A stretch of DNA of 64,000 nt, taken from the NCBI GenBank assembly GCA_012517855.1, contig JAAYUD010000088.1, positions 62,001-126,000 on the forward strand. The letters run 5' to 3'. Below the pieces are notes generated by a model. That model saw only the letters and a list, made by a program, of their open reading frames with translations, was not told the origin of the DNA and searched no databases. A program made the translations under genes and the position numbers. This document shows, piece after piece, positions 19,674 to 44,705 of the stretch. Each line of letters opens with the position of its first letter. The stretch's first letter is position 1. The DNA comes from Bacteroidales bacterium. Its GTDB lineage: Bacteria > Bacteroidota > Bacteroidia > Bacteroidales > Bacteroidaceae.

Positions 19674-21032
19674 TTACTTCTCTAACATTTTTTTAAATTC
19701 TTCGTCCGAAACAGTCTTATTGTTCAGTGTAAGTTGCTCTTTGAAGATAGCCATCAATTTATCTTCTACTACACGATCTACCATCTCGTTCACGGTTTCT
19801 TTCTTCGACATCATTTGTTGAATATAGTTCTTCAAAAGATCCTCAGGCACATTGGGCATACCATATTGAGCAAACTGAGCACGTGCTGTATTTTCGCACA
19901 TCTTAGTAATGTCGTCGTTTTCTACCTTAATTTTATTGGCATCTACCAATTGTTCCTTTATAAGTTGCCACTGCAAAGCCTTGATACTGTTGTCATAATT
20001 CTCGTCAACGAATTTCTCGTCCTTATCCTTATTATTCAAGAGCATAATCTTCTTCAACAGTTTGTCAGGATATTCAAGCTTGCCCAGTTTCTTTTCAAAC
20101 ATCGCTTTTACATCAAGCAATAGTTTATAGTCACTATTTGGAATCAATTGGGCAGCAATATCTTCTTTTACTTTTGCACGAAATTCTTCTTCGCTCTTTA
20201 CAACATCCTTGCCATAAACAGAGTCAAACAACTTTTGATCTATTTCTCCCGGCACGAAACGAGTAATTTCCTTTATGCCGTAAGAGAAATCCGATTTCAT
20301 ATCAGCAATTTCTTCCTTTTTCTTTTTCAAGAGAGAAGCGATTTCAACCTCATTGTTGTCATAAGCCTTTCTCGGATTGAAATTTACTTTAGCACCTACT
20401 TTAACGCCTTCAAAAAGTTTTTTATCGTCATCGCTGTGCATGTATTCGGGCATCATCACAGCATCTTCTACAACAATACCGTCCTCTTTAACCGCACCAT
20501 TTTCATCCAATTCGACAAGAAGTCCCTTCAACATATCTTTTCCTTCGAAAACCTCAACCTGCTTGTGTTCTCCTAGGCGGTTACGATACATTCCTATCTG
20601 ATCATCAACCATTTTATCGCCCACCTCAATTGTATAGTAGTCTACTTTATCTTTCTTAGAAATTTCTGCTTTAAAATCGGGAGCAAGAGCAACATCGAAT
20701 ACAAATTCGAAGTCATCCATCGTATCGAAATCTATCGGTTGTTGTTTTTCTTCATCCGACAGAGGCTCTCCCAAAGTTTTCAGGTTGTTTTCTTTGATAT
20801 AATCGTAAATTTTCTGACTGAGAATTTTGTTGATTTCTTCCGACTTAACGGCTGCTCCATACATCTTAGTCACCAATCCCAGTGGAACCATTCCTTTGCG
20901 GAATCCGTTCATTTGCACTTTCTGACGGTAGTTTTTCAACGATTTATCAACTTCATTCTGATAATCGGCTTTCTCAAGCTTTATTGTAAGCAGTCCGCTT
21001 ACGGCATCAATGTTTTGAAATGTAATGTCCAT
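19674..21032 (-). CDS. tig: Trigger factor, ribosome-associated chaperone and prolyl isomerase
   Basis: I place the start at 21032 (MDITFQNIDAVSG); a longer frame reaches 21041 but adds only three residues. The 452-residue protein has the trigger-factor N-domain with the ribosome-docking region (NGFRKGMVPLGLVTKMYG, normally GFRxGKxP), a divergent central FKBP-like segment (about 150-235) and an alpha-helical C-terminal chaperone domain. It binds nascent chains at the ribosome exit. The promoter upstream is an almost ideal Bacteroides promoter. Gene order tig-clpP-clpX is conserved in many bacteria. Confidence 0.95.
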   Translation of the reverse strand: MDITFQNIDAVSGLLTIKLEKADYQNEVDKSLKNYRQKVQMNGFRKGMVPLGLVTKMYGAAVKSEEINKILSQKIYDYIKENNLKTLGEPLSDEEKQQPIDFDTMDDFEFVFDVALAPDFKAEISKKDKVDYYTIEVGDKMVDDQIGMYRNRLGEHKQVEVFEGKDMLKGLLVELDENGAVKEDGIVVEDAVMMPEYMHSDDDKKLFEGVKVGAKVNFNPRKAYDNNEVEIASLLKKKKEEIADMKSDFSYGIKEITRFVPGEIDQKLFDSVYGKDVVKSEEEFRAKVKEDIAAQLIPNSDYKLLLDVKAMFEKKLGKLEYPDKLLKKIMLLNNKDKDEKFVDENYDNSIKALQWQLIKEQLVDANKIKVENDDITKMCENTARAQFAQYGMPNVPEDLLKNYIQQMMSKKETVNEMVDRVVEDKLMAIFKEQLTLNNKTVSDEEFKKMLEK

Positions 21033-21086
21033 TCTTGACAACTATTTATTTGATTTATAAATCTAACCAATTGCATTTTAAGCGGA

Positions 21087-21117
21087 CAAAATTAGTGCTA
21101 ATCTTTCAAATAACAAA
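21087..21117 (-). promoter_or_regulatory. Promoter of tig
   Basis: On the minus strand TTTG (21117-21114), 19 bases and TAATTTTG (21094-21087) match the Bacteroides consensus exactly. The predicted start near 21080 gives a leader of about 48 bases. Confidence 0.75.
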
Positions 21118-21489
21118 GGAATTTAATGAATTATGACTTATATAAATGATTTTATCATCCGCTATACGACATTTACAAACCACAAATCTTCACTCTTGCC
21201 TTTCAGCACCTATCCGCATTTATATTAGCTTATTGCAAAAAGTATGCCAAGATGAGTACATCGTGTAACACAAAAAGCGTACAGAGCAGCAAATGAATGG
21301 TACGAGATTTTAAGTAGATATTCCGATTACCCAACTTTATCCTTTTGCACAAAATACGAAATCATAAGATTATGCCCCCTTTTTCTTACAAATTCGCAAG
21401 AAACGAGACGCCCTTCAAATAGTCTGAAAGCAGCCACACCTTTGCCGAAAACTTCTGTATGATTCTATAAAAACAAAAGAAAGAAATCG
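21118..21489. other. Intergenic stretch with no recognised feature
   Basis: These roughly 370 bases between the divergent tig and HU-like genes are AT-rich. I see no convincing open frame, long hairpin or repeat. Confidence 0.5.
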
Positions 21490-21497
21490 TATTTTTG
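21490..21497 (+). promoter_or_regulatory. -7 box upstream of the iteron array
   Basis: TATTTTTG fits TAnnTTTG. It predicts a start near 21504, placing the four 22-bp repeats inside a leader of about 130 bases. No good -33 box is visible. Confidence 0.5.
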
Positions 21498-21524
21498 TCC
21501 TGATCCAATTATGGTCTCACCATG

Positions 21525-21598
21525 GTGGGACGCACGTTTCAGCCCAGTGGGACACACATGCCACCCATATAGGACGCACGTCCCACTAAGGTGGGACG
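21525..21598 (+). repeat. Four 22-bp iterons (GTGGGACGCACG-type) upstream of the HU-like gene
   Basis: GTGGGACGCACG at 21525, GTGGGACACACA at 21547, ATAGGACGCACG at 21569 and GTGGGACG at 21591 begin exactly 22 bases apart. CGTCCCAC (21579-21586) and GTGGGACG (21591-21598) also form a perfect 8-bp hairpin with a 4-base loop. Even spacing of two helical turns suggests protein binding on one DNA face; a structured leader RNA is an alternative. Confidence 0.8.
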
Positions 21599-21634
21599 AT
21601 AACAACAACTTAACCTTTTAAAAATTACTACCTT

Positions 21635-22261
21635 ATGAGCAGAAAGAAAGTATACTATGACATTTACGAAAGTCCTCAATCAGAACATTCTAGACCCAGT
21701 TATCACGTACGGGTAGCCAAATCAGATTTAATTGATTTTCAAAGAATAAAAAGGAATATAGCAAGCCAGTGTACTGCAAGCGAGGGCGACATTTCTCTAT
21801 CCGTAGACCAACTTTCGTGCAACATGGCCAATGAAGTAGGTAGCGGCAACCGCTTTCATATAGAAGGCATCGGGTATTTCTACCTTATCATAGAGGCCGA
21901 ACCGGCAAGCAGCGCCAAGTCTATCAACAACCATCAGATACGAGTACGGACAGTGGGTTTTACCCCAGACAAAATTTTGATGTCGCGACTGGCGGGTATC
22001 GATTTCTACCGCTCACCAATCAAGCGCCATTCGGCCAGCACCACTTACGCCGAGAAGCAACTAATTTTGAAAGATTTCTTTAAACACCACGGCAGCATTA
22101 CCCGTGCAGAGTTTCAGACACTGCTCGGGCTGACAAGAACAACAGCCATACGCCAACTGAACGAGTTGTGCAAAGGGCCTAGTGCTATATTTAATAAAGA
22201 AGGAGCTCGAAATTCGCCGGTCTACATACCCCTAACGACTTCCTCTTTCTGGAAAGACTAA
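21635..22261 (+). CDS. HU-like (HU-HIG) DNA-binding protein with C-terminal winged helix
   Basis: The 208-residue protein has an N-terminal IHF/HU-like domain of the Bacteroidetes HU-HIG type at about 1-120 (KVYYDIYESPQ, YHVRVAKSD, NRFHIEGIGYFYLIIEAEP, IRVRTVGFTPDK) and a C-terminal segment at about 138-205 that looks like a winged helix (AEKQLILKDFFKHHGSITRAEFQTLLGL.RTTAIRQLNELC). The combination suggests a sequence-specific nucleoid or regulatory protein rather than a bulk HU. It stands alone between the tig and lptB units. Its leader contains four 22-bp repeats, so autoregulation is a reasonable inference. No specific function is known to me. Confidence 0.8.
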   Translation: MSRKKVYYDIYESPQSEHSRPSYHVRVAKSDLIDFQRIKRNIASQCTASEGDISLSVDQLSCNMANEVGSGNRFHIEGIGYFYLIIEAEPASSAKSINNHQIRVRTVGFTPDKILMSRLAGIDFYRSPIKRHSASTTYAEKQLILKDFFKHHGSITRAEFQTLLGLTRTTAIRQLNELCKGPSAIFNKEGARNSPVYIPLTTSSFWKD

Positions 22262-22338
22262 GCCATATAAAAATTACCCGATCATTTCAAATGATGATCT
22301 ATCAAATAGCGAACTCAATTCATGAGTGAAAGTATACC

Positions 22339-23298
22339 TTACTTTTCTATGTTTTGAGAGGTTGTTTCGTCTTCTTTCTTAATCTGCGATTGGCCCTTTT
22401 TGCTTTTCAACAAATCAGGGATAGAAAACAAATGTATTTTTCTCTTCGAATGATGCTCGGCTTCGGCCAGCTCTTTTGCTTCTACAGCCTCTTCAACAGC
22501 TTCTTCCTGACGATGGTTGAACTCTTTCTGACGACGATCCTCCTCGGCTTGAAAATCTTTGCGACGCAACACAAAACTATTACTAAGGTATTTCTCACGA
22601 ACAATCTTATTGGCTGCAAGTTCTTCGGGAGTACCTTGAAAAAGGATTTTACCTTCGAAAAGTAAATAAGCCCGATCGGTAATGCTCAATGTCTCCTGAA
22701 CGTTATGGTCTGTAATGAGAATCCCTATATTCTTATACTTGAGCCGATAGACTATCTGTTGAATATCCTCAACAGCAATAGGGTCGACACCGGCAAAAGG
22801 TTCGTCGAGCATAATAAACTTAGGATCTATAGCCAAACAACGAGCAATCTCGGTACGGCGACGCTCACCTCCAGAAAGTTGATTACCTTTGTTCTTGCGT
22901 ACCTTCTGCAGGCGAAATTCGGATATAAGGCTTTCAAGTTTCTCCTTACGGTACTCACGGGGTTTATCTGTCATTTCGAGTACAGAAATAATATTGTCTT
23001 CTACACTCATTTGACGAAATACAGAGGCTTCTTGAGGCAGATACCCGATACCAGCCTTGGCTCGTTTGTGTACAGGAAATTTGGTAATATCCAAATTGTC
23101 TAGAAAAATGCGTCCTTCATTACCTGTTATCAGCCCCACTGTCATATAGAAAGAAGTAGTTTTGCCAGCACCATTAGGCCCTAGCAATCCAACAATTTCT
23201 CCTTGCTCTACATTTATCGACACATGACTGACAACGGTACGCTTTCCATATCGTTTCACCAGATTCTCAGTGCGAAGAACCATTTTTCTATCTTCCAT
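22339..23298 (-). CDS. lptB: LPS export ABC transporter ATPase LptB, with a long charged C-terminal tail
   Basis: I place the start at 23298 ([20 protein letters not shown]); the upstream open frame runs into the divergent mlaE gene. The 319-residue protein has Walker [10 protein letters not shown], the LptB-type Q-loop region ([15 protein letters not shown]), signature [16 protein letters not shown] and Walker [14 protein letters not shown]. LptB powers lipopolysaccharide extraction from the inner membrane with LptF/LptG. The ABC core ends near residue 240, as in E. coli (241 residues); the remaining about 75 residues are rich in Glu, Lys and Gln ([23 protein letters not shown]...) and are not part of the standard fold. 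A -7 box lies at 23324-23317 on the minus strand. Confidence 0.93.
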
Positions 23299-44374: not shown

Positions 44375-44705
44375 AGGTGAATATTGAAGACGATACTGAT
44401 ACTATTTTAACCATACGGAAGTGGTACTTATTGGCTTACTCAATCGACCCTGCGTCCTCAAAAAATGATAAGGACGAACATAAAAATTCATAAGGACGAA
44501 ACTAAAAGTTTATACTTACAAACATTTATTTTCGTCCTTATGAATTTCTCGCTGTATATCAACACATTGCGCAGCTTATCTTTATTTATTGTATTAATCT
44601 GATTTACACTTGAGCAGTAAACATATAACAAGAATAGTGCTCTACAAGGGTTTGTTGCACCTCTTCGGATAAGAAAGTATCAGAATGGCTAAGGATATTC
44701 ACTTC
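44375..44705. repeat. Dispersed repeat blocks B, C and D, copy 2
   Basis: ACTGATACTATTTTAACCAT (block B), the long hairpin of block C (23-bp arms at 44484-44506 and 44525-44547 with one mismatch) and GATAAGAAAGTATCAGAAT (block D) recur in the same order as at 1960-2290. The stretch from 44706 to the terminator at 44855 shows nothing else. Confidence 0.8.

Follow-up and report, generated by a model that had tools for sequence, protein, structure and literature searches.

The locus considered here raises the question of what, if anything, reads a short row of 22-bp repeats standing in front of a gene for an HU-like protein. The window, that is, the whole 64,000-nucleotide stretch of Bacteroidales DNA that was analysed, had been described in a sequence-only reading as carrying four exact iteron copies in this leader. 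That reading proposed that the protein encoded immediately downstream, or another DNA-binding protein, could bind them and modulate transcription, with an RNA-based switch as the alternative. Re-reading the window sequence bore out the 22-bp period with copies starting at 21525, 21547, 21569 and 21591, the perfect 8-bp hairpin CGTCCCAC/GTGGGACG at 21579-21586/21591-21598, the -7 box TATTTTTG at 21490-21497 on the forward strand and the ATG at 21635. The word "exact" did not survive, as the four 12-mers differ (GTGGGACGCACG, GTGGGACACACA, ATAGGACGCACG and GTGGGACGATAA). The element is a palindromic array of 94 bp at 21509-21602, to which no strand is assigned. It consists of TTATG, four 18-bp dyads (21514-21531, 21536-21553, 21558-21575 and 21580-21597) joined by the 4-bp linkers GCAC, ACAC and GCAC in this order, and GATAA. 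The dyad is of the GTCCCAC-NNNN-GTGGGAC type, and with one dyad and one linker per unit the period is exactly 22 bp. The palindromic pairs in successive units number 8/9, 4/9, 3/9 and 7/9; the outer two units are good and the middle two are worn.

We assessed whether such a worn array is a real element. It is absent from the Tandem Repeats Finder listing of the window (score 40), and sequence-blind scanning did not pick it out (best score 16 at a threshold of 19). Matches to GTGGGACG with at most one mismatch occur in the window at chance level (17 vs 16.7). Over 94 bp the array forms 29 of 47 pairs, and the maxima of 20 simulated windows were 24-28; at least 29 pairs are reached at 8 positions of the real window, with a maximum of 35. 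The sense-strand fold of the leader gives z = -4.6, a value expected of any inverted repeat. A DNA search of 101 genomes revealed a second copy in the window's own genome (74% identity, E = 2.4e-9) and, besides it, two partial matches, both in a single genome from a different family of the order. We accept the array as a real element because of this second same-genome copy and the wider family of arrays described below.

The -7 box lies 24 bp before the first array unit. It is of the TAnnTTTG type, which we take to be the Bacteroidales-type promoter motif. The array would then sit at the start of the transcript. The distance from the array to the ATG is 37 bp. Further upstream, a sequence block at 21450-21479 on the forward strand resembles, by alignment, a block upstream of two other same-genome copies (C101 and C70). 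The gene (21635-22261, forward strand) encodes a protein of 208 aa with an HU domain at residues 6-126 and a C-terminal part. The earlier label "HU-like" proved apt: the protein matches PF18291 with 84.7 bits at a cut-off of 26.2, which places it in the HU-HIG family of the HU/IHF superfamily. In its C-terminal part there are sub-cut-off matches to SelB-wing_3 (148-173) and HTH_11 (143-179). Sub-cut-off helix-turn-helix matches were found in the window protein and in two other proteins (L004 and L176), and none was clear in four further ones (L003, L006, L112 and L226). The five long HU-HIG proteins scanned carry approximately 70-80 residues more than the five short ones, which stop near the HU domain. 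Judging by this length and the weak matches, the C-terminal part of the window protein may be a winged helix. An AlphaFold2 model built from two sequences was of poor quality (pLDDT 42.8), and a search by sequence for relatives of solved structure returned IHF-beta alone (E = 0.37). The closest relatives outside the own genome share 29-30% identity and were found in 2 of 60 other genomes. In the 14 genomes examined there are 3-21 PF18291 matches per genome, some of which are plain HU or broken frames. In the open-access literature, we found no paper on HU-HIG proteins, their binding targets or their arrays.

Is an array in front of such a gene a rule or an accident? Irrespective of sequence, we scanned the 300 bp upstream of HU-HIG genes for sets of three 18-bp palindromes that follow one another at a constant period, with a threshold of 19 of 27 pairs. 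The HU-HIG profile was made from 35 long proteins, the strand was taken from Pfam matches, and proteins of at least 185 aa were counted as long. The first ATG served as the gene start, so some starts are possibly wrong. Control genes came from the same and other loci, leaving out 14 genes that share an HU-HIG upstream region and 6 that overlap an HU-HIG gene. At 22 bp, the long HU-HIG genes have an upstream array in 25 of 47 cases, against 4 of 41 for the short ones and 2 of 48 for the control genes, and shuffled upstreams yield 0.2. On the downstream side, the counts are 4 of 48 for the long genes and 7 of 43 for the short ones. Of the spacings of 18-33 bp at the long genes, 22 bp (25 genes) and 33 bp (19 genes) stand out, the latter being 1.5 periods of 22 bp, and the others give 0-3. 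The window array, which scores 16 and is too worn, is not among the 25, and nearly half of the long genes have no detected upstream array. As a second control, we examined 464 kb from the own genome, made up of the window and of stretches totalling 400 kb, and found an upstream array at 5 of 298 non-HU genes. Arrays at 22 bp number 16 in this sample, and every other spacing of 18-29 bp gives 0-5; 2 of the 16 are at HU-HIG genes and 2 look like AT-rich chance.

The half-site sequences vary widely between the leader arrays of HU-HIG genes. The GTGGGACG array is not a universal HU-HIG leader: in the own genome the window's locus is the one among 15 HU-HIG loci to have it, and the others differ. 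An HU-HIG gene of the own genome (L012, G000:C76) has a leader array 24 bp after a -7 box, and an insertion seems to have interrupted its frame midway. That roughly half of the long genes have an array, in many instances preceded by a -7 box, fits the idea of binding and self-modulation by the downstream protein. With its 22-bp-phased dyads lying behind a -7 box and before a long HU-HIG gene, the window array is a candidate operator that an HU-HIG protein would read.

The earlier reading had proposed checking whether the motif always accompanies HU-HIG genes, and taken literally this fails, because only 5 of 74 arrays have an HU-HIG gene start 38-84 bp away (Pfam-confirmed, the array being upstream each time). 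The set of 74 includes a lone 18-bp match in a long frame (L071:7206), probably a chance one. A sixth adjacent array, in G263, was recognized by coordinates. By our own estimate, with HU-HIG genes making up about 0.5% of genes, chance would give approximately 0.4-0.6 adjacent arrays. Thus, the link to HU-HIG genes holds as a rule for the long genes and their 22-bp arrays, and does not hold copy by copy, as the relatives of the window array are mostly dispersed between genes.

We followed these dispersed relatives in the window's own genome (G000), in the MAG CASEAJ (G448, uncultured Porphyromonadaceae SI.B1.metabat-bins.113), in Bacteroidia INTA.CYC.015 (G449) and in Candidatus Azobacteroides MI.4_1 (G450). 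Allowing one mismatch at most, we found the end motif GYCCCACNNNNGTGGGACGATAA in 2 of the 393 genomes searched in the order, and the reversed control gave 0. In a genome collection from which the own genome is possibly absent, its exact form is present in three named MAGs, on 41 stretches altogether. The viral contigs gave no exact match. With at most two mismatches, there are 78 matches at 55 places (own count) in CASEAJ, 21 in G449, 12 in G450 and 4 in the own genome, and the controls gave 0. The pattern GTGGGACGN{0,14}GTCCCAC, an overly strict form of the motif, has 0 matches in the own genome. According to a simple frame finder applied to 53 rows, 37 copies lie outside any frame of at least 80 aa, and the frames overlapped by the other 16, mostly of 84-197 aa, are probably spurious. 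The neighbours of the dispersed copies are mixed. An array specific to the window gene alone is ruled out by these copies. Arrays contain 1-7 units, mostly 3-4. The window array and 30 further copies, chosen for having four units and with the near-duplicate L073 left out, align without gaps over 94 columns. A covariance model built from these 31 copies, the window's included, found matches in at least 12 of 393 genomes, with ten candidates scored per genome; the newly matched copies mostly keep the 94-bp plan with altered sequence.

Several features of the surroundings were noticed on the way. In CASEAJ there are mosaic elements (L049, L060, L071, L075 and similar ones) in which a single CTTTTCAC...GTGAAAAG unit comes after the GTCCCAC units. 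This single unit is similar to those in the leader of the CASEAJ HU-HIG gene L112 (TTTTCACATAGGTGAAAA). Next to arrays near contig ends (L056, L058, L059, L063 and L079) stands a repeat end TGTCATTTAACGAATAAGGTTGACTTAAAA that may belong to an insertion sequence. In the loci L026, L028, L030 and L032-L038 (G090/G450), a promoter-like block TTGACTTCC...TATCTTTATAT lies approximately 150 bp upstream of most dispersed copies, and 22-bp units like ACATTATGCTTTCATTTGTACG lie downstream of most of them. Within the window, 1985-2140 and 44400-44550 form a dispersed repeat pair of 22-bp-phased AAAATTCATAAGGACGAAACTA units with an inverted copy, which is MITE-like.

Dispersal of this kind may be the work of purely selfish DNA. 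In that case, MITE-like elements inserting between genes would carry the arrays as their minisatellite cores, some would have landed or been kept before HU-HIG genes, and no protein would read them. The mixed neighbours of the dispersed copies favour this explanation, and BrickBuilt, a MITE of Porphyromonas gingivalis, is a published precedent (PMC4596501). Signs of mobility are also present. Within 600 bp, 12 of 32 CASEAJ rows have at least one IS5-like end (CGTGAGTTCGGGATAAA-like) and 2 of 32 have both; the probe was loose (at most four mismatches) and also matched an unrelated block in the G450 loci, which weakens the argument. Where present, the ends mostly lie approximately 70 bp from the array on one side and 227 bp on the other. 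They resemble the ends of MITE239 and ISPg3 (IS5 family) as printed in PMC4596501. Of the two elements with both ends, as read by eye, L068 has a perfect duplication of 9 bp at its flanks and L076 has none. At the window copy we found neither CGTGAGTTCGGGATAAA-like ends nor a target duplication. In part, then, the spread of arrays is visible: in CASEAJ some of them ride in MITE-like elements with IS5-like ends. What selfish spread leaves unexplained is the bias to the upstream side of long HU-HIG genes (25/47 vs 4/48 downstream) by arrays of mostly different sequences, the strict 22-bp phase, and the -7 box that precedes leader arrays and seldom dispersed ones. We therefore consider purely selfish DNA unlikely, although it keeps some weight.

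If the HU-HIG proteins read the arrays, leaders and dispersed copies of one genome may be expected to resemble each other. Four dispersed families of the own genome match HU-HIG leaders of the same genome: the GTCTCACAGCTGTGAGAC family matches the leaders of the C17 and C66 genes, the GTTTGGTCGTGACCATAC family that of the C55 gene, the GAATCACATATGTG-type family that of the C76 gene, and the GTCCCAC family that of the window gene. Searched with at most three mismatches through the whole own genome, the pattern of the C55 leader recovered the leader itself together with arrays on C27, C32 and C66 (reversed control 0); the C66 array was already known from the 464-kb scan. The window also contains a second array, unrelated to the GTCCCAC type, at 1415-1620 (copy at 1432), composed of 22-bp-phased palindromes GTAACTAACGGAAGTTAC / GTAACTAACGCATGTTAC... 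and standing after a SusD-like gene (named from its sequence). The GTAACTAACGGAAGTTAC family has four copies in the 464 kb of the own genome, one in the window and three in the 400 kb. No HU-HIG leader partner of this family was found in the own genome, where one HU-HIG gene stands at the very beginning of its contig and has no upstream sequence.

We quantified this likeness with 31 leaders from ten genomes. Arrays of fewer than three units were left out, and the C76 leader was added by hand. In eight genomes, 48 of 60 dispersed arrays were most similar to a leader array of the same genome, with 9.5 expected, the effective number behind this count being smaller because copies within one genome are related. 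By genome, the counts were 12/15 in G000, 6/10 in G450, 23/26 in G448, 2/2 in G263, 1/2 in G164, 0/1 in G012, 2/2 in G031 and 2/2 in G346. Most genomes with leader arrays thus also have dispersed ones whose half-sites are similar. Twelve arrays of G449, G002, G004, G032 and G247 were left out, as these genomes have no leader in the set; counted as misses, they give 48/72. G449 has dispersed arrays, yet none of its three HU-HIG matches is a gene with an array. Counted by eye as sequence families, approximately 10 of 15 match a same-genome leader. The likeness of arrays within a genome is not proof of cognate binding. We also compared protein identity with array similarity for 30 genes (leader threshold 18, with the window and L114 arrays added by hand). 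The two are correlated, with a Mantel rho of 0.25 (P = 0.002), 0.27 for the HU part and 0.16 for the C-terminal part.

These data bear on another possibility, namely that a different regulator or nucleoid protein reads the arrays and HU-HIG genes are merely frequent targets of it. Most arrays do lie away from HU-HIG genes, as such a factor would allow. A single factor would give one site, and within a genome the half-sites mostly vary from the leader of one HU-HIG paralogue to that of another. Together with array similarity tracking protein similarity, this counts against one other factor, and we regard such a reader as very unlikely.

It remained to compare duplex DNA with RNA as the form in which the array would act. 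A TAnnTTTG box lies at -45 to -8 of 12 of 30 leader arrays, the window's included; random windows gave a mean of 2.6 and a maximum of 8 in 1000 draws. Arrays that follow such a box at this distance of 8-45 bp would open the transcript. Beside dispersed arrays, the box was found in 0/15, 0/26 and 0/10 cases in three genomes (0/51) and in 3/5 in a fourth. An RNA leader, in which the transcribed array acts through several hairpins in series or a single long one (an attenuator, an RNA switch or a protein-binding RNA), would agree with the many leader arrays transcribed from their first bases and with the fold of the window leader. It would also agree with the pairing of the whole element, which covaries above shuffles (164 vs 96 cells, 0/500), although lineage-specific palindromic tetramers confound this value. 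The remaining evidence points the other way, and the RNA-based switch of the earlier reading is disfavoured. On the sense strand, G.T mismatches are not in excess of A.C (71 vs 80, P = 0.52), which suggests that what matters is the DNA duplex and not an RNA stem. The local stems covary below shuffles: two-sided unit changes number 12 vs 16.9 in shuffles, and 14 unit changes are compensated vs 128 uncompensated. Individual units therefore keep their dyad symmetry loosely, a point that also counts against the operator reading given below. Most dispersed copies lack the promoter. At gathering score, Rfam gave no match over the array in the window at 21000-22400 and none over an array in 15 loci with copies, where microRNA-hairpin families appeared sub-threshold. 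Overall, an RNA leader seems quite improbable. The sole Rfam match above the gathering score in the 15 loci, the sRNA FopS (L086:22-88), lies approximately 200 bp from one array. FopS-family matches (E <= 0.01) number 5-9 in each of G000, G448, G449 and G450, most of them above the gathering score, and with one near an array we consider FopS as an array partner a coincidence.

With moderate confidence, we therefore favour a reading in which the window array would act as leader operator for a long HU-HIG gene and at the same time belong to a dispersed family. The HU-HIG protein, with its HU body and probable winged helix, would bind its own array on duplex DNA as side-by-side dimers. Once bound, it would throttle its own transcription at the transcript start. 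The same protein may also occupy the dispersed arrays, and each paralogue would in this way address its own set of chromosomal sites. A broader proposal is more tentative and, in our estimation, rather doubtful. Bacteroidales might run parallel DNA-address systems, in which each long HU-HIG paralogue reads its own array family, with one promoter array for feedback and several to dozens of dispersed ones, protein and arrays co-evolving to separate specificities. The dispersed sites might then bridge or fold the chromosome or keep mobile repeats in check. If each long HU-HIG protein does read its own array, the arrays would reveal its targets from sequence alone, and its function would be directly testable. 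The arrays would also form a natural set of DNA addresses whose evolution goes along with that of the proteins reading them, and one class of intergenic repeats that lacks annotation would be explained.

Among known systems, BrickBuilt is close in form. It consists of 23-nt direct repeats in up to 22.8 copies, and one of its copies adjoins a PF00216 DNA-binding gene (PMC4596501). Like the arrays described here, it occurs in Bacteroidales and is intergenic and dispersed, with tandem units of 22-23 bp and predicted long stems (PMC4596501). Its direct repeats are of other sequence, whereas the arrays here are 22-bp dyads, which by eye are unlike the 23-nt unit AGAYCATARTATCCTCTCRTRTG. IS5-type ends are a feature of BrickBuilt, and among the arrays only some CASEAJ relatives have them; the excerpted text of PMC4596501 describes no pairing of BrickBuilt with HU-HIG genes, in contrast to the pairing found here. 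The REP-RAYT systems, and the CGTC-tagged REPs, are also comparable. The RAYT is a Y1 transposase whose gene is flanked by the same repeats (PMC3733652). Both systems have dispersed extragenic palindromes, with repeats beside the cognate gene in the case of RAYTs. The partner is a Y1 transposase there (PMC3733652), whereas the proposed partner of the arrays is an HU-HIG protein. RAYT (PF01797) has 0 matches in G000 and G449, 1 in G448 and 3 in G450, and a RAYT as the array partner is ruled out by its absence from the window's genome. By eye, there is no unpaired GTAG/CGTC tag at the array end, CGTC falling inside the paired arms. Our literature search found no description of phased operator arrays specific to single HU-HIG paralogues. 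In autoregulatory operators and iterons, the protein that reads the phased repeats comes from the neighbouring gene. The arrays share with these systems the phased repeats next to the gene of the proposed reader. Unlike them, the arrays occur with several paralogues per genome, each leader having a different array, and with look-alikes dispersed over the chromosome.
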